Origin: Bacteroidales bacterium
Lineage (GTDB): Bacteria > Bacteroidota > Bacteroidia > Bacteroidales > UBA932
Reading direction: 5' to 3'
DNA: 64,000 nt
NCBI GenBank assembly: GCA_017619675.1
Contig: JAFZRX010000002.1
Location: 1 to 64,000, forward strand
This document shows positions 9,351 to 62,521 of the stretch, one piece after another. The position numbers and the translations under genes were made by a program. The notes beneath the pieces were generated by a model. It saw nothing but the letters and a program-made list of their open reading frames with translations, did not search any database and was not told the origin of the DNA. Numbering within the stretch: the stretch's first letter is position 1; every line of letters begins with the position of its first letter.

Positions 9351-12300
9351 ATGAAAAGAAAGTTGTTCATTTCCATTATCACAGCTGTGATAGTGATCCC
9401 TGCAGCGATACTCACTATTGCTGCATGCCAGAACGGCTCAAGACCGGAAGGTCCTTGCGACGTTTACGCCCAGGGAGGAACACCTTGCGCCTCTGCACAC
9501 AGTACCACCCGTGCTCTGTTCAAGGCATACAAGGGCCCTCTCTACCAGGTAATGCGTCAGTCTGACGGCAAGAAACTGGACATTGGCATCACGCCGTCCG
9601 GAGCCGCCGACGCTGATGCACAGGACAAGTTCTGCGCCGACACTTATTGCTGGATCACAATCATCTACGACCAGGGCCCCAGCGGAAACGACCTGCAGCA
9701 GGCCCCTCGCGGAGGATTCAGCGGCCACGCAATGGGTGGATTCAACAACATCCCCGTAGCGGACTGGGCACCTGTAACCATCTACAACCAGAAGGTTTAC
9801 GGTACGTTCATCGCTCCCGGTATGGGACTCCGCTGGAACGACACCAAGGGAATCGCGGTTGACGACCAGGCAGAAGGCCAGTACTGGGTAATCGCAGGTA
9901 ACCACTACAACGACGGTTGCTGCTTTGACTACGGTAACGCCGAGACCGACTCCCGCGACGACGGTGACGGAACCATGGAGACCACCTACTTTGGAAACCA
10001 GACCGCATGGTATCACGGAAACGAGCCGGGTCCTTGGATCATGACAGACCAGGAGAACAACCTTGTAGGTTGCGTAAATCCTGATCCTAACGACAAGTTC
10101 TGCCCTACCCTCAACCCTGTTGAGTGGAGATTCGTTACCGCTACCGCCGACGGTGAGCCTCATCACTGGAGGTCAATGGGTGGAGACGCCCAGGAAGGCG
10201 AGCTCCGCATCTACTACGATGGAGGACGTATCCAGAATCCTCGCAGCAGCTACGACCCGATGCGCAAGCAGGGAGCCATCCTCCTCGGAAACGGTGGAGA
10301 CAACTCCGTAGGATCACAGGGAACCTTCTACGAGGGCGCCGTAACCTTCGCAGGCACATTCCCTTCAGCTGAACTCCAGCAGGCCGTACAGGCCAACATT
10401 GTTGCCGCCCACTACGACGTAGAGCGCGTAACTGTTGCCGCAGAGAAGGACATCAACAGGCCTAACCGCCTCCAGACCTTCATCCCCGGCGAGACCCAGA
10501 AAGTTGCCGTCAAGTTCGTGAACACCACCGGCAAGGAGATCAAGGACCTCACCCTCAGCGTAGACGTTCCAAGCGGATGGAAGGCTGAGGCCGCCAAGAA
10601 GATCGACTATGCTGTCGCTCCCGGCCAGACCGTGATCGTTACATTTGACGTTACTTCAGGTGACAAGGAATTCAACGGTGACCTCCTTGGCGTTGCCAAG
10701 TGGGGCAAGAAGACCGAGAAGTCCATCGAGAAGGTACGCAACACCTATCCTATCAAGATCAACGAGTTCCGCATCTCCGGCGCCAACGCTACAGACTCAT
10801 TCATCGAGCTCTACAACGCCGGCAACGACGCCGTTGACCTCTCAGGATGGACCGTTACCACACACAAGATCAACATCCCTGTATTCTCCAACATCACCAT
10901 CCCTGCCGGAACAACTCTCGCTCCCAAGGGATTCTATGTTCTTGGACTCGCAACCACAGGCCTTGCAGTTCCCGCAGCAAAGGGTGACAAGGTTATCTAT
11001 CCGCGCAGCGTAGACGGAATCAAGGCCGGCGACACCATCGAGATCGACGGAGAGAAGGCCGTTGTAGCCAAGGTTACCGCTCCCGGAAGGGATGACGCAC
11101 AGGCAGACCAGAGGAACAACAACAGGGTTACCTACGGCACTCCTACCACACTGTGGCAGCCGCTTCCTGAGGGACCGGTAATCACCATCCCCGCAGGCTC
11201 AAAGAATGTTCCTGTAACCAATATCGCAGGCTTCAAGGTTGGCCAGAAGATGGCTATCGGCTACGGCGCAGAGTATCCTGCAGTTGACCGCACCATCGAG
11301 AAATATGAGGTTGTAACCGTTACCGAGGTCGGCAAGCCGGGAACACAGGCTTACCTTGCATACGATGCAAAACCGGGTGACACCAACATCAAGGTTACCT
11401 CAGTTGCCAACATCAGCCCCGGCGACAAGATCCGTCTTGACATCGCCAGCGAGGGACACGGAATCGAGTGGGTTACCGTCAAGTCAGTTGGAACCCAGTC
11501 CCAGGTAAGCTCAATCAGAGGTCCTATGCCTCTTGAGCAGGCCGGAACAGGTCTCGACCTTGAGGAACCTATCAAGTACTTCCACTCTGCCAACATTCCG
11601 TTCGCAAACAACGGAACAGGTGTTTCCTTCGAACCCGCAACCAAGTTCGACCACTCATCCAACGAGCCTGTACTGGCCCTCGTATTCGAGATCGAACTCA
11701 AGGAGGCCCTCGCAGCCGACCATCCTATTGACGCTCCTGTCATGAAGGCCGGTGCAAAAGAGGCCGGATTCCAGGGCGAGGCCAACCAGTACTACGGTGG
11801 ACCTGGCTTTGCAAATGCAGGTGCAATCACCCTCCGTACCGCAAAGGGCAACGTTGCTGACGCCCTCAACTATGGTCTCATCGTTGACGCATGGTCATCA
11901 GAGGGATATCACGCTGATTCCGGACACGGACTCGGCGGAAGCCGCGTAAGGGTTTACTCCCCCAACACCAGGAACTTGCTCCCTGGCCAGACTCTCATGA
12001 CTCCTAACCTCAGCTCAGGACGTTATCCTGACGGAGCAGACGCCGATGACAACATCAACGACTTCAAGCTCCAGGCTAACGGAAGCCTCGCTGCCAACGC
12101 TCCTGCCGGAGCAACCAACATCAAGGTTGCTAGCGTAGCCGGCCTCAAGCCGGGCGCCAAGCTTTATCTTGGCAATGAGGTTGCCACCATCAAGGAAGTA
12201 GGAACCGCAGGCGCAACCGTCCTTGCAGAGCGCGCTCTCTCAGGTGCAAAGGCTCTCAAAGTTCAGGCTATCCAGGGCTTTAGGGCAGGACAGGTCATCA

Positions 12301-12560
12301 AGATCGGCAACGAGGAAGTTACAATCGAGAGTGTAGAACAGGGCCGTCGTCCTCAGGGCATGCCTATGACTCCGGGCGCTGTAATGCAGATGCCTGCAAG
12401 CACCATCAACCTCACCACTCCTATCAGGGGATCATTCGGTGCAGGCGCACAGGTTGCCGGAACAGGTGTTACGCTCGCAGCTCCTCTCAAGGCCGCTCAC
12501 GCTATGGGATCACCATTCACGGACAACGTACCTTCACCTGGTGCTCCTAACGCTTATTAG
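9351..12560 (+). CDS. GH54 alpha-L-arabinofuranosidase with NEW3-like, lamin-tail and repeat modules (lipoprotein)
   Basis: The protein has 1069 residues. A signal ends in a lipobox (TIAAC, Cys26). Residues 34-355 are a GH54 catalytic domain like fungal AbfB, which removes arabinofuranose side chains from arabinoxylan and arabinan. Spacings match Aspergillus AbfB: C36/C46, C95/C100, vicinal C190-C191, nucleophile E235 in DQENN, acid/base D317 in GGDNS. A six-residue longer loop adds a C241/C251 pair. The fungal CBM42 is absent. Instead come a NEW3-like beta domain (about 365-465), a lamin-tail-like domain from about 466, five degenerate repeats of about 35 residues, and a second lamin-tail-like part ending in SPGAPN. 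The disulfide-forming VKOR-DsbA gene follows 8 bases later. The extra modules may bind polysaccharide or cell surface (inference). Confidence 0.93.
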   Translation: MKRKLFISIITAVIVIPAAILTIAACQNGSRPEGPCDVYAQGGTPCASAHSTTRALFKAYKGPLYQVMRQSDGKKLDIGITPSGAADADAQDKFCADTYCWITIIYDQGPSGNDLQQAPRGGFSGHAMGGFNNIPVADWAPVTIYNQKVYGTFIAPGMGLRWNDTKGIAVDDQAEGQYWVIAGNHYNDGCCFDYGNAETDSRDDGDGTMETTYFGNQTAWYHGNEPGPWIMTDQENNLVGCVNPDPNDKFCPTLNPVEWRFVTATADGEPHHWRSMGGDAQEGELRIYYDGGRIQNPRSSYDPMRKQGAILLGNGGDNSVGSQGTFYEGAVTFAGTFPSAELQQAVQANIVAAHYDVERVTVAAEKDINRPNRLQTFIPGETQKVAVKFVNTTGKEIKDLTLSVDVPSGWKAEAAKKIDYAVAPGQTVIVTFDVTSGDKEFNGDLLGVAKWGKKTEKSIEKVRNTYPIKINEFRISGANATDSFIELYNAGNDAVDLSGWTVTTHKINIPVFSNITIPAGTTLAPKGFYVLGLATTGLAVPAAKGDKVIYPRSVDGIKAGDTIEIDGEKAVVAKVTAPGRDDAQADQRNNNRVTYGTPTTLWQPLPEGPVITIPAGSKNVPVTNIAGFKVGQKMAIGYGAEYPAVDRTIEKYEVVTVTEVGKPGTQAYLAYDAKPGDTNIKVTSVANISPGDKIRLDIASEGHGIEWVTVKSVGTQSQVSSIRGPMPLEQAGTGLDLEEPIKYFHSANIPFANNGTGVSFEPATKFDHSSNEPVLALVFEIELKEALAADHPIDAPVMKAGAKEAGFQGEANQYYGGPGFANAGAITLRTAKGNVADALNYGLIVDAWSSEGYHADSGHGLGGSRVRVYSPNTRNLLPGQTLMTPNLSSGRYPDGADADDNINDFKLQANGSLAANAPAGATNIKVASVAGLKPGAKLYLGNEVATIKEVGTAGATVLAERALSGAKALKVQAIQGFRAGQVIKIGNEEVTIESVEQGRRPQGMPMTPGAVMQMPASTINLTTPIRGSFGAGAQVAGTGVTLAAPLKAAHAMGSPFTDNVPSPGAPNAY

Positions 12561-12568
12561 TATTCATT

Positions 12569-13729
12569 ATGGCACAGAAAAACAGTGCTATAACGCTTAA
12601 ACGGGTCACGGCGCTTCTGAGCGTCGTGGCCCTTGTTTTATGCGTTATCATGGCAATGCATTCCATTAAGGGAACCGCTATGATAGGATGCGGCGCGGGT
12701 TCTTCCTGCGACAATGTCCTGAACAGCAGATGGTCCGCCGTACTGGGCGTGATTCCCGTGGCAGGGCTTGCAGTAGGTGTTTATCTGGCCATACTTTTAT
12801 GTCTGTACTTTGTCAAGGACAGGGAGCTCTCCCCCATCATCTGGAAGATGCTCCTTGTATTTGGCGGAGCCATACTGGGTGCCGCGATCTGGTTCTTCAT
12901 ACTCCAGAAATGGGTTATCGGGCAGTTCTGCAAGTACTGTATGACCGCCCATTCCATAGGCATCGTAGTGACGGGCCTGCTATGGTATCAGGCCCACAGG
13001 AACTGTCCCAACAAATGGAATCCGGCATTCGGGGCCGCAGGTCTCCTGCTGGCCGGATGCCTGGCCGGATTCCAGCTCCTGACCACCCCCAGGGTGGCCT
13101 ATGACCACGGAATTGCGGAAGGCTCCCTCCCTGTGCTCAAGGCCTCTGAAACGCCCGTCCTGGGCAACCCTGACGCCACATACCACATAAACCTGATGTT
13201 CGATTACCAGTGCTCCCACTGCCGCAAGATCCACTTCGCGGCCAAGGAGATAGTGGAAAGGCATCCTTCGGAAATAGCCTTCGTGCTCACTCCTTGCCCG
13301 CTCAGTTACGCCTGCAACCCGTACGTTGCGGCAAGCGGCAGGGACCAGTTCGCAGGCTCCTGCGAACTTGCCAGGCTGGCGCTTGCCGTATGGTGCGCCG
13401 CCCCCGAGAAGTTTGCGGAATACGACGAATGGCTCTTCACTGCCGAAGACCCCGCAAAGGGCTGGTATCCGCGCACCATTGACGCCGCCAACCAGAAGGC
13501 GGCGGAACTGCTGGGCAGCGAGGAGCGCCTCTTCGAGACCACCCGCAACGCCGCCATCAGTTCCATTTTCTCCAAGAGTTTCGACCTGTTCGGCCGCACC
13601 ACCATGCAGGGCAAGAACGGCATTCCAAGACTGGTCTACAAGTCACAGTGGATCATTCCGGAGGTAGATACCCCGGAAGCCCTGATGGAAATCCTGAATA
13701 CGGTATTCGAGATACCTGTTACCTATTAG
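12569..13729 (+). CDS. VKOR-DsbA fusion, disulfide-bond-forming membrane protein
   Basis: The protein has 386 residues. Residues 1-175 are a vitamin K epoxide reductase domain with about five membrane helices, loop cysteines C41 and C47 (CGAGSSC) and the quinone-proximal pair C121-KY-C124. Residues 195-386 are a DsbA/thioredoxin-like domain with active site C215-SH-C218 and an extra C243/C249 pair. Such fusions oxidise periplasmic cysteines and pass electrons to quinone. The gene begins 8 bases after the GH54 gene and is clearly in its operon; the GH54 enzyme has four predicted disulfides, so it is the likely client. The 3' end overlaps the convergent DoxX-like gene by four bases. Confidence 0.94.
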   Translation: MAQKNSAITLKRVTALLSVVALVLCVIMAMHSIKGTAMIGCGAGSSCDNVLNSRWSAVLGVIPVAGLAVGVYLAILLCLYFVKDRELSPIIWKMLLVFGGAILGAAIWFFILQKWVIGQFCKYCMTAHSIGIVVTGLLWYQAHRNCPNKWNPAFGAAGLLLAGCLAGFQLLTTPRVAYDHGIAEGSLPVLKASETPVLGNPDATYHINLMFDYQCSHCRKIHFAAKEIVERHPSEIAFVLTPCPLSYACNPYVAASGRDQFAGSCELARLALAVWCAAPEKFAEYDEWLFTAEDPAKGWYPRTIDAANQKAAELLGSEERLFETTRNAAISSIFSKSFDLFGRTTMQGKNGIPRLVYKSQWIIPEVDTPEALMEILNTVFEIPVTY

Positions 13730-14778
13730 AGAAGCAGCAATGCAGCAAGGCAGGTGATACCTGCGGCCTGCAGCCATACGCGGCCGCGGGACTGGGCCTT
13801 TACGGAGTATTCCGTAGCGTCCCTGGCCAGGATCATGAACATTTCGTCCCCTGTAGGGAGTGATTTCTTGTCCCATTTCGCTATCACGGTGCCGTCTTCC
13901 AGGTAGGTCGCGCCTCCGTTGGAGCGGTTGAGGGCGACGGCCGTGCGGTAATCTGTCGTGAAGGTGCTCGTCCTCATATCCAGAGGGACACTTTCAGTAT
14001 TGGCGGCTGAGATGAGGATGAGACAGTTGGCCCCGTTCATGAAGGCTTCATTGCCGGATTCAGTGATGCGGGCCCAGTCTTCAGCTGTCATTTTCTCAGG
14101 CTCATAGGCAGAATAGATGATCACCTTTCCATAGGTGGCCAGTTCATCGTAATAGTCACCGTAATCGTCCTTGAAAGAGAGGATTGGGGCGTCCTGGTCA
14201 TAGTTGCCGTTAGCGCTGAAAATCTCTGACTGGGGTGCGTATGGGGTGAAGTCCACCAATGGAAGGTGGTTCTGTGAGTATACGGCAATTCCAATGATTA
14301 TGAGGGCGGCTATTCCAAAGCCCACGTACCTGATCTTTCGCGGCGGCGGCATGAGCTTGAACGGCAGGAAAGCCGGGATGCAGAACACGCAGAGCACTAT
14401 ATTCTTGAGGAATGTCTGCCAGTGGGTCAGGTGGATGGCCTCGCCAAAGCAGCCGCAGTCCATGTCAGGGTTCTTGATGAGCAGGAAGAGCGTTATAATT
14501 GTGAAGAACGCCATCATCACCATGGTTATGAGGGCGACTATCTTGCTCCATACCCCAGCAAGAAGCGCCGCTCCTACAAGGGCTTCCAGCAGCGACAGGG
14601 CTACTGCAAGGAACCTGTCCATTCCCATCAGGAAGGTGAGATTGAAGAACTTGAGGTATTCGCGCACTATGAGGGTGGTGCCCACCGGGTCAATGAGTTT
14701 GAGAAGTCCGGACAGGAAGAAAACCAGACCGATCAGACATGCGAAGAGGCGGCGGAAACCGCTGTAGAAAGAACCCAT
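13726..14778 (-). CDS. DoxX/MauE-like membrane protein (BT_3928 type)
   Basis: The protein has 350 residues. Residues 8-145 form the four-helix DoxX/MauE-like unit with SGLLKLIDPVGT near the start and the C108-G-C110-FGE motif typical of MauE-like proteins, which is thought to be redox active. A fifth helix lies at about 150-167 and a periplasmic domain at 170-325 has a thioredoxin-like strand pattern but no CxxC. A last helix ends at the C-terminus. The exact role is unknown. It starts 2 bases after tmk and converges on the VKOR-DsbA gene, so two quinone/thiol-type membrane proteins meet tail to tail. Confidence 0.85.
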   Translation of the reverse strand: MGSFYSGFRRLFACLIGLVFFLSGLLKLIDPVGTTLIVREYLKFFNLTFLMGMDRFLAVALSLLEALVGAALLAGVWSKIVALITMVMMAFFTIITLFLLIKNPDMDCGCFGEAIHLTHWQTFLKNIVLCVFCIPAFLPFKLMPPPRKIRYVGFGIAALIIIGIAVYSQNHLPLVDFTPYAPQSEIFSANGNYDQDAPILSFKDDYGDYYDELATYGKVIIYSAYEPEKMTAEDWARITESGNEAFMNGANCLILISAANTESVPLDMRTSTFTTDYRTAVALNRSNGGATYLEDGTVIAKWDKKSLPTGDEMFMILARDATEYSVKAQSRGRVWLQAAGITCLAALLLL

Positions 14779-56301: not shown

Positions 56302-57090
56302 ATGAAAACTTCCAGAATCATATTTTTTGCCTTGGCGGCGGTAATGGCCGTGGCATGTAATAACAAGAAGAAAGATGAGATCCAGCCCGTGTGGGGAACG
56401 CTGGACCATCCGTTGCAGGAAGAACGGGCGCCTGAAAAGGTGCACGGGGCAATGACCCTGCCTTATACGGACCGCTATGAGAATATCCTTGACGACCACG
56501 GCGTAAGCGTCTGGAGCCTGTTGTGGTGTAATCCGGACATCTCCGCTGAAGGTTACGGAATCCATGTCGTAAAGGACAAGAAAACAACACCGTTCCCTAA
56601 TATCTACCACGGAAGGAATCCCTGGGCGGAGTATAACGCTGACAAAGACTTGCTGTGGCTGTCCTGCACAGTCATGGGAGGCACGGGAATACATGTTGAG
56701 AAGCCTTATCTCTTCCGTTTCGATGAAACGGGATCGGCAATAATCGAGACCAAACTGGAACCGTACGAAATCCAGCAGGCACTGCGCAAGCGCCTGAGTT
56801 ACAAAGTGCAGGGAGACGATATCACTTTCTATGACAACGGACAGCCCATCTGCACAGTCACCAACACCATCACGGACATGGGCGGCCTGGATGACGAACA
56901 GCCGGTATGGATTGGAGAGCAATTATCCTATTTCATGGAGGATGGCGACCTGTACGTACGTGTAACGCCCGGTGCAAAGTTCACCACCGGCCTGGTTCTG
57001 ATGTACGACGATATGCCGGAACTGACAGCCAAGATATCTTTCAATGATTACGGCGCTCTGCAGATAGGCGGCATCACAGTTGCATCTTAA
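56302..57090 (+). CDS. Lipoprotein of unknown function
   Basis: The protein has 262 residues from ATG 56302, which follows a promoter and gives a lipoprotein signal (AAVMAVAC, Cys18). An upstream in-frame start at 56245 would include the promoter. The rest is beta-rich and soluble, with tryptophans (SVWSLLWCNPD, PWAEYNADKDLLWLSC) and paired acidic segments, but no known motif. It precedes the alpha-2-macroglobulin gene by 55 bases, which has a promoter of its own. Confidence 0.75.
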   Translation: MKTSRIIFFALAAVMAVACNNKKKDEIQPVWGTLDHPLQEERAPEKVHGAMTLPYTDRYENILDDHGVSVWSLLWCNPDISAEGYGIHVVKDKKTTPFPNIYHGRNPWAEYNADKDLLWLSCTVMGGTGIHVEKPYLFRFDETGSAIIETKLEPYEIQQALRKRLSYKVQGDDITFYDNGQPICTVTNTITDMGGLDDEQPVWIGEQLSYFMEDGDLYVRVTPGAKFTTGLVLMYDDMPELTAKISFNDYGALQIGGITVAS

Positions 57091-57114
57091 CTTCCACTTG
57101 AATCAAGTTTTTTG

Positions 57115-57122
57115 TAAGTTTG
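57115..57122 (+). promoter_or_regulatory. Promoter -7 element of the alpha-2-macroglobulin operon
   Basis: TAAGTTTG on the plus strand, 23 bases before the ATG at 57146. Confidence 0.6.
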
Positions 57123-57145
57123 TATCAATAAAACAAACGTTCGCT

Positions 57146-60100
57146 ATGCGTAAACTTCTATATGCGGCCTCGGTCGCCATTATCGTCATATTTGCCGGTC
57201 TGACGGCATGTACACCCAAACACACAGAGTCCATCGATCCGGCGTTCGCCAATTATATCAGCGCCTACACGGGCGGAGTGGTCCTGGAAGGGACACCCAT
57301 CCGCGTTGAACTGGCTAGGCCTGTCCCCATTGAGAAGCAGGCCCAGGGCCTGTTCCGATTCAAACCCGCCCTTTCAGGAAGCGAGCGCTGGCTGAGCCCT
57401 ACCGTGGTGGAGTTCGTGCCCGACGCCCTCAAGGAAGGAACCGTCTACGAGGGTTCGTTCCAGGTAGGCAAGGTGCTGGACGTGAAAGAAAGCCAGTGCC
57501 AGGCGTTCCCCTTCCAAATACAGGCGGCTCCCAAGACTGCCACGCTGACCCTTGACGGCATTACCATCAGGGACGATGCCACCCTCCAGGGAAGCATCCA
57601 GCTGAGTGTGCCTGCTGCAAAGGAAGACATAGTCCTGACCGTTGATCCGGAGACTCCCGTAACCATCACTGGCGAAGGCAACCTCTTCAGTTTCCAGACA
57701 GCCGGAATAACCCGTTCCAACGTGGACACGCCAGTGAAGATCAGCCTGAAAGTCAACGGCTTCCATGACGCAAAGCCCATCAAGGCCGTCATCCCTGCGG
57801 CTGGATCATTCAAGGTAATAGACGCGCGCATAGTACGTGACGGCAATCCCCACGCGGACGTACGCTTCAGCGAGCCGCTGGCCGCATCGGCCGCACGCGA
57901 AGGCCTCATCGAACTGTCCGGAGCCATCCGCCAGACCATAGACATAAAGGACAACTGCGCCCGCATTTATTTCGAGGCGGAGCCGCGGAAAGATCTCTCC
58001 CTGACAGTACACCGCGGAGTCAAGAGCGAAAGCGGCCTGGCGCTTGCCGATGACTTCCGCACCAGTTTCGCCGCATCGGACCCCTTCCCTGCCGTAGAGA
58101 TACCACTTGAGGGCAATATCCTGCCTGACCAGAGCAACCTGGTGCTTCCATTCCGCGCCGTGAACCTCAGCGCAGTGGACCTCAGGATAATTAAGATATA
58201 CGAGGACAACGTCCTCCTGTTCCTCCAGGAAAACGGCCTGGACGGCAATTCCGAACTGAGGCGCGCCGGACGCCTGGTTTACAGCGGCCAGATTCCATTG
58301 ACCAAAGACCCTTCGCTTGACCTTCACACCTGGAACGACTTCAACATAGACCTGTCAGGCATGTTCCAGAAGGAGCCTGGCGCAATATACCGCATCCTCC
58401 TGTCGTTCAGGAAAGAGTATTCGCTGTACGGAGGCAAGCCTGCCCCGCAGATGCTTCCAGTGGACAGCGGCAAGCCGTCAGAAGAGGAAGAGGCCACCTG
58501 GGATATCCAGAACAGTTACTGGTGGGACAATGTCATTGACTGGAGCCAGTTTGACTGGGACGACGTGAACGACCCCGAGACTCCATCCTACTATATGCAG
58601 TCCGAGCGCTTCAAGGCCGTGAACCTCCTGTCCTCCAACCTTGGCCTTCTGGCCCAGTATGCGGACGGTAACACCCTCTGGGCCACCGCCACCAACCTTG
58701 GTGACGCGACGCCGGCATCGGGGGTTGACCTGGAAGTATACGATTTCCAGTTACAGCGCATCGCCACGGGAAAGACCAACGGAAAGGGACTTGCGGAAAT
58801 ACAGGTTTCACACAAGCCTTTCGTACTCCTGGCCCGGAAGGGCAAGACTATAGGCTACCTGCGCCTGGCCGACGGCTATGAGAAGTCATTCAGCCGCTTC
58901 GACGTAGGAGGACAGGCAGTACAGAAAGGGCTCAAGGGATTCGTATATGGCGAACGCGGCGTGTGGCGCCCCGGCGACACACTGCACGTGAGCATGATCC
59001 TGGCCGACAAGATGCAGCGCATCCCTGAAGGCCATCCTGCTTCCCTGGAGCTCTATACACCTGAAGGCCAGTTCTATACAAGGATGCTCTCTACCGGTCA
59101 GGACGGATTCTACACCTTCCCGGTAGCAACCTCCCCTGAAGATCCCACCGGTTGGTGGAACGCATACATCAAGGTGGGTGGATCCGCCTTCCACAAGAGC
59201 CTGCACATTGAGACCATCAAGCCCAATCGCCTTAAAGTGGCCCTGGACCTGCCGGGCGATGTCCTGCAGGGCGGAGCCCGCACCACGGCCCGCGTGTCGT
59301 CGTCATGGCTGACCGGCGTTCCGGCCTCCGGCCTCCGCGCCAGCGCCACCATGACCCTCTCCAAGGGCCCCGTTTCCTTCCCGGGCTTTGAAGGATACGT
59401 CTTCCGCAATCCAGCCTCAACCTTCGAGGCCAGCGAACATCCTCTCTTCCAGACCATCCTTTCCGACGACGGAACGGCCGACACGGCCTTCAACCTGCCG
59501 CCGGCACAGGATGCGCCGGGACTCCTCCAGGCCTTCATCGTAACATCCGTGATGGAGAGCGGCGGTGACGAGAGTTTCACCACCCAGACCGCGCCGTATT
59601 CTCCGTTCCCGGCCTATGTGGGACTGAAACTCCCTGACGGTGACCTGGAGACTGACAAGGACCACACTGTGAACGTTGCCGTAGTTGACGCCACCGGAAA
59701 GAGGCTTTCCGGCAGGAAGGTGGAATATGCCGTATTCAAACTTGATTGGAGCTGGTGGTGGGAGAACGATCCCTACAGGCTCCAGAGTTATGTGAGCGGC
59801 ACAGGCGCCCAGCCAGTATCATCCGGCACACTGACTTCCGGATCGCAGGACGCCACATTCACACTGAGGGCTTCCGAAGAGGAATGGGGCCGCTATCTGG
59901 TACTGGTAAAGGATGTCCAGGGCGGACATATCTCAGGACAGACCGTAATAATTGACTGGCCTTCATATCAGGGCCGAGCCGGAAGGACGGATCCCAATTC
60001 CGTGTCCATGCTAACCTTCTCAACTGACAAGGACAGCTACAGGGCCGGGGACAAGGCCACCGTATATATTCCAGCTGCCGTCAGCGGACAGGCCCTGGTC

Positions 60101-62521
60101 GCCCTGGAGAACAGCGCGGGCGTGATCAGCCGCGAGTGGGTTTCCACAAAACCCGGCCAGGATACGCCATACACATTTACCGTGACCCCGGAAATGGCTC
60201 CTAACTTCTATGTACAGATAACCCTTGTACAGCCATACAACACAGGGAATGACCTTCCGTTGCGCCTGTACGGCGTCAAGAGGCTGCTGGTGGAGAATCC
60301 GGCATCGCACCTGGAGCCGGTTATCAAGGTTGCGGACACAGTGGCACCTGAAGAGAAGTTCACAATCTCCGTTTCCGAGAAATCCGGCAAGCCTATGACC
60401 TACACCCTGGCGGTAGTGGACGAAGGCCTGCTTGACCTCACAAACTTCAAGACTCCTTCTCCATGGGAGGCAATATACAGTACAGAGGCCCTGAGTGTGA
60501 GGACCTGGGACCTTTATGACCAGGTAGTTGGCGCATTCGCAGGACGCTTCGGTCCAATGCTGTCAATAGGCGGTGACCAGGAGAACATAGTGGCCGCACG
60601 CAAGGACAACAGGTTCAATCCTGTGGTGCAGTTCCTTGGACCTTTCACCCTGAACAAGGGCACTGATTCCCATGAAATCCAGTTGCCAATGTACGTGGGA
60701 AGCCTGCGCGTGATGGTAGTGGCAGGCCACGACGGCGCGTATGGCAACGCCTCGCGCACCGTGGCCGTCAAATCGCCTCTGATGGTGCTCATGAGCCTCC
60801 CGAGGCAGGTATGCACCGGAGAGGATATCGTACTGCCGGTGAACGTGTTCGCCCTTGACGACCAGATCAAGTCCGCACAGGTTACAGTGAAGGTTGAAGG
60901 CCCGCTCCAGATAGACGGATCAGCTTCTACCACGGCACAGTTCGACGGAGCTGGAGATACAGTGGTAAGGTTTGCCCTCAAGGGCACCGGAGAAGGCTCA
61001 GCCAAGGTAACAGTAACGGCCAGCGGTGCATCCCGCAGCGCATACGAAACCGTTGACATCCAGGTGGTTAACCCTAATCCTGAAACCGTCACCGTAAAGC
61101 AGCAAAGGCTGGAAGCCGGGGCTGTCGTAATGTTTGACGCGGGAGCGGGATCCACACTTGAACTAGCAGGATTCCCTGCAGTTGATGCGGCCGGCCTGTA
61201 CAGGACAATGAAGAATTACCCTTACAGCTGCACCGAGCAGCTCTCCTCCAAGGGCCTGACCCTCCTCCATCTGCTGCCGCAGCTGTCAGAGGCTGACTCC
61301 CAGGAGGCGAGGACAATAATACCTAACATCATACACCAGTTATACACCCGTCAGCGCAGCGACGGTGGCTTCTCCTACTGGAACGGCGGCAACAACTCAG
61401 ACTCCTGGGCAAGTTCGATGGCCGGCCAGTTCCTGGCCGAGGCGGCCGCAGCAGGATTCGAGGTACAGGGCGATGTCATAGACAACTGGAAACGCTTCCA
61501 GAACAACCTGAGCCAGGCCTACAGGCTGGCAGGCACCGCCGCCTTCACACAGCTGGACGAGTGCTACCGCCTCTACTCCATGGCTGTGGCAGGCTCTCCT
61601 TCCAATGCGGCTATGAACCGCATCAAGGAGGCCGGATCGCTTGACAGCCGTGCGGAATGGATGCTGGCAGCAGCGTATGCGGTAGCCGGCAAGATACAGC
61701 AGGCAAAGGAACTCACTACCAAGGAAGGCGTTGGAGAATACAGCGCCGCCGACTTCACATACGGATCCAACCTGCGTGACAAGGCGGTAGTCCTTCAGGT
61801 TCTGGCACTCACCGACAACGTCGCGGGCGCCCTTCCGGTTGCCCTTGAGGTTGCCGAGGCCATCAACAATGACCAGTACTCCACCCAGGAGGCAGCCTTC
61901 GCCGCAATGGCAATGGATCGCCTGCTTGCAAAGGTGGGCAGCCAGGGCGTCAAGGCAACCGTGGGCGGTCAGGCAGTAACATCTGCCAAGTCCGTATATG
62001 CGCAGTCCGTTTCCGGAAATGTTGAAGTCAAGAATACGGGCGACCAGTTGCTTTACGCAACCCTCATGACAGTCGCCAAGGCTCCTGCGGGAACTCCTGT
62101 TCCGGCAGCCGCAAACGGCATCAAGCTGACTGTATCCTATCTGGACGCATCCGGCAACGCCATGAAGGTGGATTCAGTTCCGCAGGGAACGGAGTTCACC
62201 GTACAGGTGAAGGTGGACAACGCCACGCCGTCAGACCTCCGATCCCTGGCGCTCAGCGCAAGCATCCCGTCAGGATGGGAAATCCTCAATGACCGCATGC
62301 GCGGCGGCAGCGGACAGGATGACGCGTCTTTCCGCGACATCCGTGACAGCCGCTGCGACTGGTTCTTCGACCTGGCGCAGGGTAAGTCCAAGACCTTCAC
62401 TATGAAGGTACGCGCGGCCTATGAGGGTTCTTACACCCTGCCGTCCATCACCTGCTCCGCCATGTACAATCCGCGCGTCGCGGCCAATACGGCGTCCGCC
62501 AGGACGGTCGTTACCCGATGA
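57146..62521 (+). CDS. Bacterial alpha-2-macroglobulin, thioester type, lipoprotein
   Basis: The protein has 1791 residues from ATG 57146. The signal ends in a lipobox (GLTAC, Cys22). Many MG-type beta domains follow, with the MG1-MG2 region (GVWRPGDTLHVSMILAD near 610) and a bait region, then the thioester motif C1362-TEQ-1365 in PYSCTEQL and an alpha/alpha-barrel TED with QRSDGGFSYWNGG. It traps attacking proteases on the periplasmic side by covalent bonding. Its stop overlaps pbpC (ATGA); the A2M-PBP1C pairing is known from many Gram-negative bacteria, where the trap is thought to guard peptidoglycan repair. Confidence 0.96.
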   Translation: MRKLLYAASVAIIVIFAGLTACTPKHTESIDPAFANYISAYTGGVVLEGTPIRVELARPVPIEKQAQGLFRFKPALSGSERWLSPTVVEFVPDALKEGTVYEGSFQVGKVLDVKESQCQAFPFQIQAAPKTATLTLDGITIRDDATLQGSIQLSVPAAKEDIVLTVDPETPVTITGEGNLFSFQTAGITRSNVDTPVKISLKVNGFHDAKPIKAVIPAAGSFKVIDARIVRDGNPHADVRFSEPLAASAAREGLIELSGAIRQTIDIKDNCARIYFEAEPRKDLSLTVHRGVKSESGLALADDFRTSFAASDPFPAVEIPLEGNILPDQSNLVLPFRAVNLSAVDLRIIKIYEDNVLLFLQENGLDGNSELRRAGRLVYSGQIPLTKDPSLDLHTWNDFNIDLSGMFQKEPGAIYRILLSFRKEYSLYGGKPAPQMLPVDSGKPSEEEEATWDIQNSYWWDNVIDWSQFDWDDVNDPETPSYYMQSERFKAVNLLSSNLGLLAQYADGNTLWATATNLGDATPASGVDLEVYDFQLQRIATGKTNGKGLAEIQVSHKPFVLLARKGKTIGYLRLADGYEKSFSRFDVGGQAVQKGLKGFVYGERGVWRPGDTLHVSMILADKMQRIPEGHPASLELYTPEGQFYTRMLSTGQDGFYTFPVATSPEDPTGWWNAYIKVGGSAFHKSLHIETIKPNRLKVALDLPGDVLQGGARTTARVSSSWLTGVPASGLRASATMTLSKGPVSFPGFEGYVFRNPASTFEASEHPLFQTILSDDGTADTAFNLPPAQDAPGLLQAFIVTSVMESGGDESFTTQTAPYSPFPAYVGLKLPDGDLETDKDHTVNVAVVDATGKRLSGRKVEYAVFKLDWSWWWENDPYRLQSYVSGTGAQPVSSGTLTSGSQDATFTLRASEEEWGRYLVLVKDVQGGHISGQTVIIDWPSYQGRAGRTDPNSVSMLTFSTDKDSYRAGDKATVYIPAAVSGQALVALENSAGVISREWVSTKPGQDTPYTFTVTPEMAPNFYVQITLVQPYNTGNDLPLRLYGVKRLLVENPASHLEPVIKVADTVAPEEKFTISVSEKSGKPMTYTLAVVDEGLLDLTNFKTPSPWEAIYSTEALSVRTWDLYDQVVGAFAGRFGPMLSIGGDQENIVAARKDNRFNPVVQFLGPFTLNKGTDSHEIQLPMYVGSLRVMVVAGHDGAYGNASRTVAVKSPLMVLMSLPRQVCTGEDIVLPVNVFALDDQIKSAQVTVKVEGPLQIDGSASTTAQFDGAGDTVVRFALKGTGEGSAKVTVTASGASRSAYETVDIQVVNPNPETVTVKQQRLEAGAVVMFDAGAGSTLELAGFPAVDAAGLYRTMKNYPYSCTEQLSSKGLTLLHLLPQLSEADSQEARTIIPNIIHQLYTRQRSDGGFSYWNGGNNSDSWASSMAGQFLAEAAAAGFEVQGDVIDNWKRFQNNLSQAYRLAGTAAFTQLDECYRLYSMAVAGSPSNAAMNRIKEAGSLDSRAEWMLAAAYAVAGKIQQAKELTTKEGVGEYSAADFTYGSNLRDKAVVLQVLALTDNVAGALPVALEVAEAINNDQYSTQEAAFAAMAMDRLLAKVGSQGVKATVGGQAVTSAKSVYAQSVSGNVEVKNTGDQLLYATLMTVAKAPAGTPVPAAANGIKLTVSYLDASGNAMKVDSVPQGTEFTVQVKVDNATPSDLRSLALSASIPSGWEILNDRMRGGSGQDDASFRDIRDSRCDWFFDLAQGKSKTFTMKVRAAYEGSYTLPSITCSAMYNPRVAANTASARTVVTR

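Follow-up and report, generated by a model that had tools for sequence, protein, structure and literature searches.

The stretch of DNA analyzed (the window) comprises positions 1 to 64,000 of the forward strand of contig JAFZRX010000002.1, from a Bacteroidales bacterium (GCA_017619675.1; genome G000), and it contains two adjacent genes transcribed in the same direction. The first gene (9351-12560, + strand) encodes a predicted alpha-L-arabinofuranosidase of glycoside hydrolase family 54 (GH54) with 1069 amino acid residues, assigned by its open reading frame (ORF), its Pfam domains and its match to AbfB of Aspergillus (PDB: 1wd3; E-value of 2.3e-98). The second gene (12569-13729, + strand) encodes a VKOR-DsbA fusion of 386 residues, assigned by Pfam, by similarity to a solved fusion and by alignment. 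As stated in the initial annotation of the window, 8 bases separate the GH54 stop codon, which ends at 12560, from the ATG of VKOR-DsbA at 12569.

The GH54 protein starts with a signal peptide (9351-9428) recognised by sequence, with a lipobox-like site at its end (C26), followed by the catalytic domain (9453-10415, residues 35-355), a NEW3 (NPCBM_assoc) domain (10485-10667; PF10633, E-value of 5.3e-11), a lamin-tail domain (10746-10976; PF00932, E-value of 2.2e-12) and a repeat-like C-terminal region, all on the + strand. The catalytic domain matches positions 1-314 of the 315 of the PF09206 profile (ArabFuran-catal), with an E-value of 9.6e-115 and 383 bits against a cut-off of 25. This near-full family match, together with the catalytic Glu and Asp and two vicinal cysteines, makes the protein a member of GH54, and arabinofuranosidase activity is predicted. 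AbfB and the window protein have in common the GH54 domain, the nucleophile, the acid/base residue and three cysteine pairs, one of them vicinal; AbfB differs in lacking a fourth pair and in its C-terminal domain, which we take to be a CBM42, where the window protein has the NEW3 and lamin-tail domains instead.

The cysteines of the 1069-residue protein are at positions 26, 36, 46, 95, 100, 190, 191, 241 and 251, and all eight other than the lipobox C26 are in the catalytic domain. The spacings claimed in the initial annotation were recovered: C36 and C46 are 10 residues apart, C95 and C100 are 5 residues apart and C190-C191 (9918-9923, + strand) are vicinal, as in AbfB, while E235 (10053-10055, + strand) lies 45 residues after C190 and D317 (10299-10301, + strand) 82 residues after E235. 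E235 and D317 align with E221 and D297 of AbfB, respectively, and by the AbfB roles and numbers we assume that they are the catalytic nucleophile and the acid/base. The fourth pair, which was also claimed, is real: the C241...C251 segment (10071-10103, + strand) begins 6 residues past the nucleophile, and in the alignment AbfB has a G and a gap opposite these two cysteines.

The VKOR-DsbA protein contains a VKOR membrane domain (12608-12973, + strand; PF07884, E-value of 1.1e-16) with C41, C47 and C121xxC124, and a DsbA-like thioredoxin domain (13145-13726, + strand) with C215SHC218, C249/C265 and P353, where PF13462 (Thioredoxin_4) covers residues 193-238 with an E-value of 3.5e-5. In the 24 aligned rows, the window among them, C41, C47, C121/C124, C215/H217/C218, C249, C265 and P353 are invariant in all 24; by analogy, P353 is presumably the cis-Pro. 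By sequence match, the solved fusion 4nv2 is a distant relative of the window VKOR domain; 4nv2 and 3kp9 are, we assume, structures of the Synechococcus VKOR fusion. The protein resembles bacterial VKOR-thioredoxin/DsbA fusions both in this domain and in having motifs of the same kinds. With its loop cysteines, both CXXC motifs and the conserved Pro, the second gene encodes a VKOR-DsbA/thioredoxin fusion, for which quinone-dependent oxidase activity is predicted.

Genome contigs searched with the GH54 domain yielded 307 stretches, of which the best 80 were fetched, a set thus biased toward query-like sequences and containing many close kin. Loci whose contig extends at least 600 bases beyond the GH54 end were considered evaluable (68 of 80); one of the 12 dropped loci, L027, shows the start of a VKOR-DsbA gene at the contig end. 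To the question of the initial annotation, how often such a gene is the direct neighbour of GH54, the answer is 62 of the 68 evaluable loci, where VKOR-DsbA is the next gene on the same strand, at distances of up to 552 bases (negative gaps are an artefact of taking the first start codon). According to their record titles, these 62 loci include Phycisphaerae, Sedimentisphaerales, Aeoliella, Lentisphaerae, Oleiharenicola and many gut Bacteroidales. The second-commonest neighbour family, a GH43/arabinofuranosidase protein, was found in 14 of the 68 loci once frames overlapping GH54 or VKOR were taken out; families were built from ORFs of at least 120 residues at an E-value of 1e-20, and small or fast-changing neighbours may escape this count. 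The GH54/VKOR-DsbA adjacency exceeds chance. Of the six exceptions, L061 and L075 (genome G036) have VKOR-DsbA on a separate contig and L086 has it about 3 kb off; the others are L069, L084 and L088.

GH54 proteins were assigned to clade a (GH54a) when they scored more than 450 bits to the window GH54 domain, a definition in which the cysteines were not used, and compared with those of a clade b. Among 200 genomes of the same genus, GH54 was found over its cut-off in 23, VKOR in 21 and both in 20. With PF07884 as the search model, VKOR-DsbA of this family was present in 20 of the 21 genomes with a clade-a GH54 and in none of the 179 others; for this table (20, 1, 0, 179) the Fisher p-value is 1.3e-26 and only indicative, the genomes being related. 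GH54 without VKOR was found in G015, which is 77% complete and whose contig stops within the gene, and in G695 and G771, which have only clade-b GH54 and in which VKOR-DsbA of this family was not found. VKOR without GH54 was found in G790, at 27.8 bits, just over the cut-off of 27.5, and the VKOR of G016 is sub-threshold at 25.6 bits; to the VKOR-DsbA model, A1, the VKORs of G790, G016 and G695 gave no match, 19 bits and no match, and they were rejected as family members. DsbB was detected in one of the 200 genomes, marginally (22.8 bits, cut-off 22.1). In the 20 genomes with both genes, these are adjacent in 15, apart in three (G036, G700 and G780) and at a contig end in two (G801 and G808).

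Among 344 Bacteroidales genomes, the complete GH54 domain occurs in three, all of them with VKOR-DsbA as the adjoining gene, and a VKOR in 18 (Fisher 1.2e-4); a fourth, G280, has a partial GH54 match of 28 bits. In the 15 remaining genomes with a VKOR, this protein was discarded as a relative, as the scores to the model of the linked family are at most 28.4 bits, several giving no match, versus about 400-560 bits for the linked full-length proteins. A further sample was centred on G386 (Aeoliella) and covered 274 genomes of its phylum, with up to seven VKOR-DsbA candidates scored per genome. In it, the complete GH54 domain is confined to G386 (partial matches occur in two other genomes), as are scores above 300 bits to model A1; 46 genomes match A1 at some level, and ten besides G386 encode sister proteins of 175-293 bits, with GH54 absent from all ten. 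The putative oxidase gene mostly lies next to the proposed client and, within the sampled genus, occurs only where that client is.

Sister VKOR-DsbA proteins of about 175-295 bits were seen in varied gene contexts (L261-L263, L265 and L296-L306), and G384 carries three of them plus one GH54-type copy. No repeated neighbour of the sister genes could be named from the first residues of the adjoining proteins, Pfam having been run on one only (L263, Verrucomicrobia).

The alignment used to study the cysteines contains 91 clade-a and 27 clade-b rows: after ORFs of less than 500 residues and identical sequences were dropped, 139 GH54 ORFs gave 117 rows, to which the window protein and AbfB were added. 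A lipobox-like site is found upstream of the catalytic domain in 41 of 90 clade-a rows. The nucleophile is conserved in 91/91 clade-a and 27/27 clade-b rows, the acid/base in 90/91 (with one gap) and 27/27, and the vicinal pair in all 118 bacterial rows, the window counted. C241 and C251 are both cysteines in 91/91 clade-a rows and in 0/27 clade-b rows. The pair is also absent from AbfB and from two GH54 copies of Streptomycetaceae (L347 and L348), within about 6 kb of which VKOR-DsbA was not found; the Streptomycetaceae and clade-b proteins keep the catalytic residues of the window GH54 but not C241/C251. Furthermore, four of the five rows that lose C36 or C46 lose both, which is what a bonded pair would predict. 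Because VKOR-DsbA goes with clade a and not with clade b, the alignment points to C241-C251 as a candidate feature that goes with the VKOR-DsbA partner, although this is a correlation only, since clade a differs otherwise too.

Trees of the 64 non-redundant adjacent pairs are broadly concordant, with a Mantel r of 0.63 against a highest value of 0.11 in 2000 shuffles. In these pairs the GH54 catalytic domains are 73-97% identical to that of the window and the VKOR-DsbA proteins 35-90%, with less than 50% in 56 of the 64, a divergence at which the pairing is still maintained. Both trees group the same ten rows, in which three Bacteroidota rows and G110 cluster with rows of Planctomycetota and Verrucomicrobiota; this clustering suggests that the GH54/VKOR-DsbA unit was transferred between phyla, the details being unsure given the long VKOR branches and possible foreign contigs in bins. 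The same inter-phylum placement would fit a common genomic island that moves both genes with no interaction between them, VKOR-DsbA serving the whole envelope. This explanation seems unlikely to us, considering that no other neighbour family goes beyond 14 of the 68 loci and that both genes are still retained in G036, G700 and G780, where they are unlinked. A role for the whole envelope also finds no clear sign in the exported proteins, in which the cysteine content is 0.885% in 464 kb of G000 and 0.816% in 400 kb of G016, and even and odd cysteine numbers are 37/32 and 21/24, respectively; both are weak tests of low power, with crude export calls (some of the proteins look cytosolic), a G000 part that includes the window and a G016 that has a sub-threshold VKOR.

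On the gene anatomy, the conserved cysteines, the adjacency, the co-occurrence and the concordant trees observed, GH54a and VKOR-DsbA probably constitute a portable client-oxidase unit in which GH54a is the main client but not the sole one. The link between both genes that the initial annotation proposed is upheld by the comparison. Electron flow, the disulfides themselves and any need of the partner for folding or activity are predictions from the sequences, as follows. GH54a would be exported to the cell envelope with its eight catalytic-domain cysteines, whose thiols would give up electrons to the C-S-H-C thioredoxin domain of VKOR-DsbA, and the VKOR cysteines would pass these electrons on to quinone and so re-oxidise the thioredoxin domain. 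The disulfides installed would be C36-C46, C95-C100, the vicinal C190-C191, located in the sugar site, and C241-C251, specific to clade a and shortly after the nucleophile. As neither VKOR nor DsbB passes the cut-off in most sampled genomes of the genus, the oxidase may have been acquired or retained in those with GH54a. That VKOR-DsbA would oxidise GH54a is proposed from its motifs and from a clostridial VKOR-DsbA which, in the excerpted text of its report (PMC12453122), complements E. coli without dsbA and dsbB and restores disulfide formation. The latter, a related fusion that works as an oxidase, also argues against a DsbA domain acting as isomerase or reductase, either to keep the strained Cys190-Cys191 correct or to switch GH54 on and off. 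Such a function would be in keeping with the conservation of the vicinal pair in every bacterial row and with its contact with bound arabinofuranose in the AbfB structure 1wd4 (excerpt of PMC12102755), but the pair is equally present in clade b, which does not track VKOR-DsbA on its own, and in both Streptomycetaceae copies with no VKOR-DsbA nearby, and we regard this function as very improbable.

Several observations weigh against the client-oxidase unit, or at least against its exclusiveness. The genome of the window has a single VKOR-DsbA for four GH54 genes, of which one is clade b and the rest are clade a; apart from the window gene, the other three (two in clade a, one in clade b; C14 80808-89457 and C7 149642-150592, loci L093 and L094) have no adjoining VKOR gene. 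G036, G700 and G780 retain the two genes at separate places, and a carboxylesterase adjoins the VKOR-DsbA gene of G700, that of G780 and the second copy in G719. Most of the cysteines are common to clade-b GH54, yet clade b alone does not track VKOR. Outside the genus, three genomes have GH54a without VKOR-DsbA: in those of L069, L084 and L088 (G381, G383 and G385, of unstated completeness) the VKOR-DsbA model finds nothing, and their GH54a retain all eight cysteines. Two of these genomes are labelled KSB1.

The esterases beside VKOR-DsbA are cysteine-rich type-B carboxylesterases (PF00135), found at L235 (10778-12388, - strand), L250 (3688-5289, + strand) and L254 (262-1977 and 3180-4814, + strand). 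Three of the four have six cysteine positions in common, by eye, and the fourth (L254 3180-4814) has four of them, the two others missing together, while an ordinary PF00135 neighbour (L235 8037-9593) has three cysteines besides the lipobox. Since cysteine-rich carboxylesterases adjoin VKOR-DsbA in three genomes of the same genus, a carboxylesterase is likely to be a second client. It could further be argued that VKOR-DsbA serves as common folding machinery for cysteine-rich secreted hydrolases such as GH54a, GH54b and the type-B carboxylesterase, with the proximity to GH54 a matter of convenience and not of specificity, for which the esterase-linked copies, the four GH54 genes per oxidase of G000 and the gene order GH54a-VKOR-GH54b at L041, L056, L074, L080 and L253 all speak. 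We consider this a possible but doubtful explanation, given that the same-genus genomes without GH54a are devoid of VKOR-DsbA of this family, that all three esterase-linked cases occur in GH54a genomes and that GH54a adjacency is so frequent. The unit with GH54a as its main client keeps our preference; of the "dedicated" unit of the initial annotation, the GH54a association stands, and "dedicated" is too strong because of the four GH54 genes per VKOR-DsbA and the carboxylesterase-linked copies. GH54 without an adjacent VKOR-DsbA, and VKOR-DsbA beside other genes, which that annotation had set against its proposal, are seen in a few genomes, and the co-occurrence survives there.

The GH54 protein had also been described as fungal or eukaryote-type, which was not borne out. 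Mean identities are 51% between clade a and AbfB, 52% between clade b and AbfB and 48% between both clades, AbfB being the sole fungal sequence compared. As bacterial GH54 is widespread (the 307 stretches in genome contigs) and clades a and b are equally near AbfB, there is no sign of a recent fungal origin, and these identities to a single fungal sequence give no support to a nesting of bacterial GH54 in fungal GH54.

Other genes around the pair belong to the local neighbourhood. SppA, upstream in the window, was rejected as part of the unit, being upstream at L013 but downstream at L015. Downstream and convergent to VKOR-DsbA, a gene at 13726-14778 (- strand) encodes a MauE/DoxX-like membrane protein (PF07291; NCBIfam BT_3928 below cut-off) whose place beside the pair is limited to certain close relatives; MauE is associated with the disulfide-rich methylamine dehydrogenase. 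This gene was also rejected as part of the unit, with no tblastn match at L015, L016, L017 and L019. Elsewhere in the window, positions 57080-62521 (+ strand) encode a bacterial alpha-2-macroglobulin-like protein of 1813 residues.

GH54, VKOR-DsbA fusions and client-specific oxidases such as AssT-DsbL-DsbI are already known separately. The latter, of uropathogenic E. coli, is reportedly a dithiol oxidase system dedicated to a single client (Grimshaw 2008, cited in PMC6067686), and it resembles the unit proposed here in that an exported enzyme has its own oxidase encoded alongside. They differ in that AssT-DsbL-DsbI has a sulfotransferase as client and separate DsbL and DsbI on top of the general DsbA/DsbB, whereas here a single VKOR-DsbA fusion goes with a glycosidase, in a genus mostly without VKOR and DsbB. 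For the clostridial VKOR-DsbA, no linked client is described in the excerpted text (PMC12453122), unlike the subfamily of the window, which accompanies GH54a. Among the top-ranked open-access papers, with subscription journals and preprints outside the search, we met no report of the GH54/VKOR-DsbA pairing, its spread or its marker cysteine pair.

More tentatively, with the chances somewhat short of even, disulfide formation in these Bacteroidales may be accessory and client-driven, carried on a cassette with a disulfide-rich hydrolase (GH54a and, locally, the carboxylesterase) and crossing phyla together with it. If the proposal is true, carbohydrate degradation would include a client-oxidase unit, and this in a genus whose genomes mostly lack VKOR and DsbB, and C241/C251 would be a sequence mark telling which GH54 lineage accompanies VKOR-DsbA. 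GH54a produced without VKOR-DsbA may misfold, and the pair would make it possible to test how disulfide-rich hydrolases are folded in bacteria that have no general oxidase.

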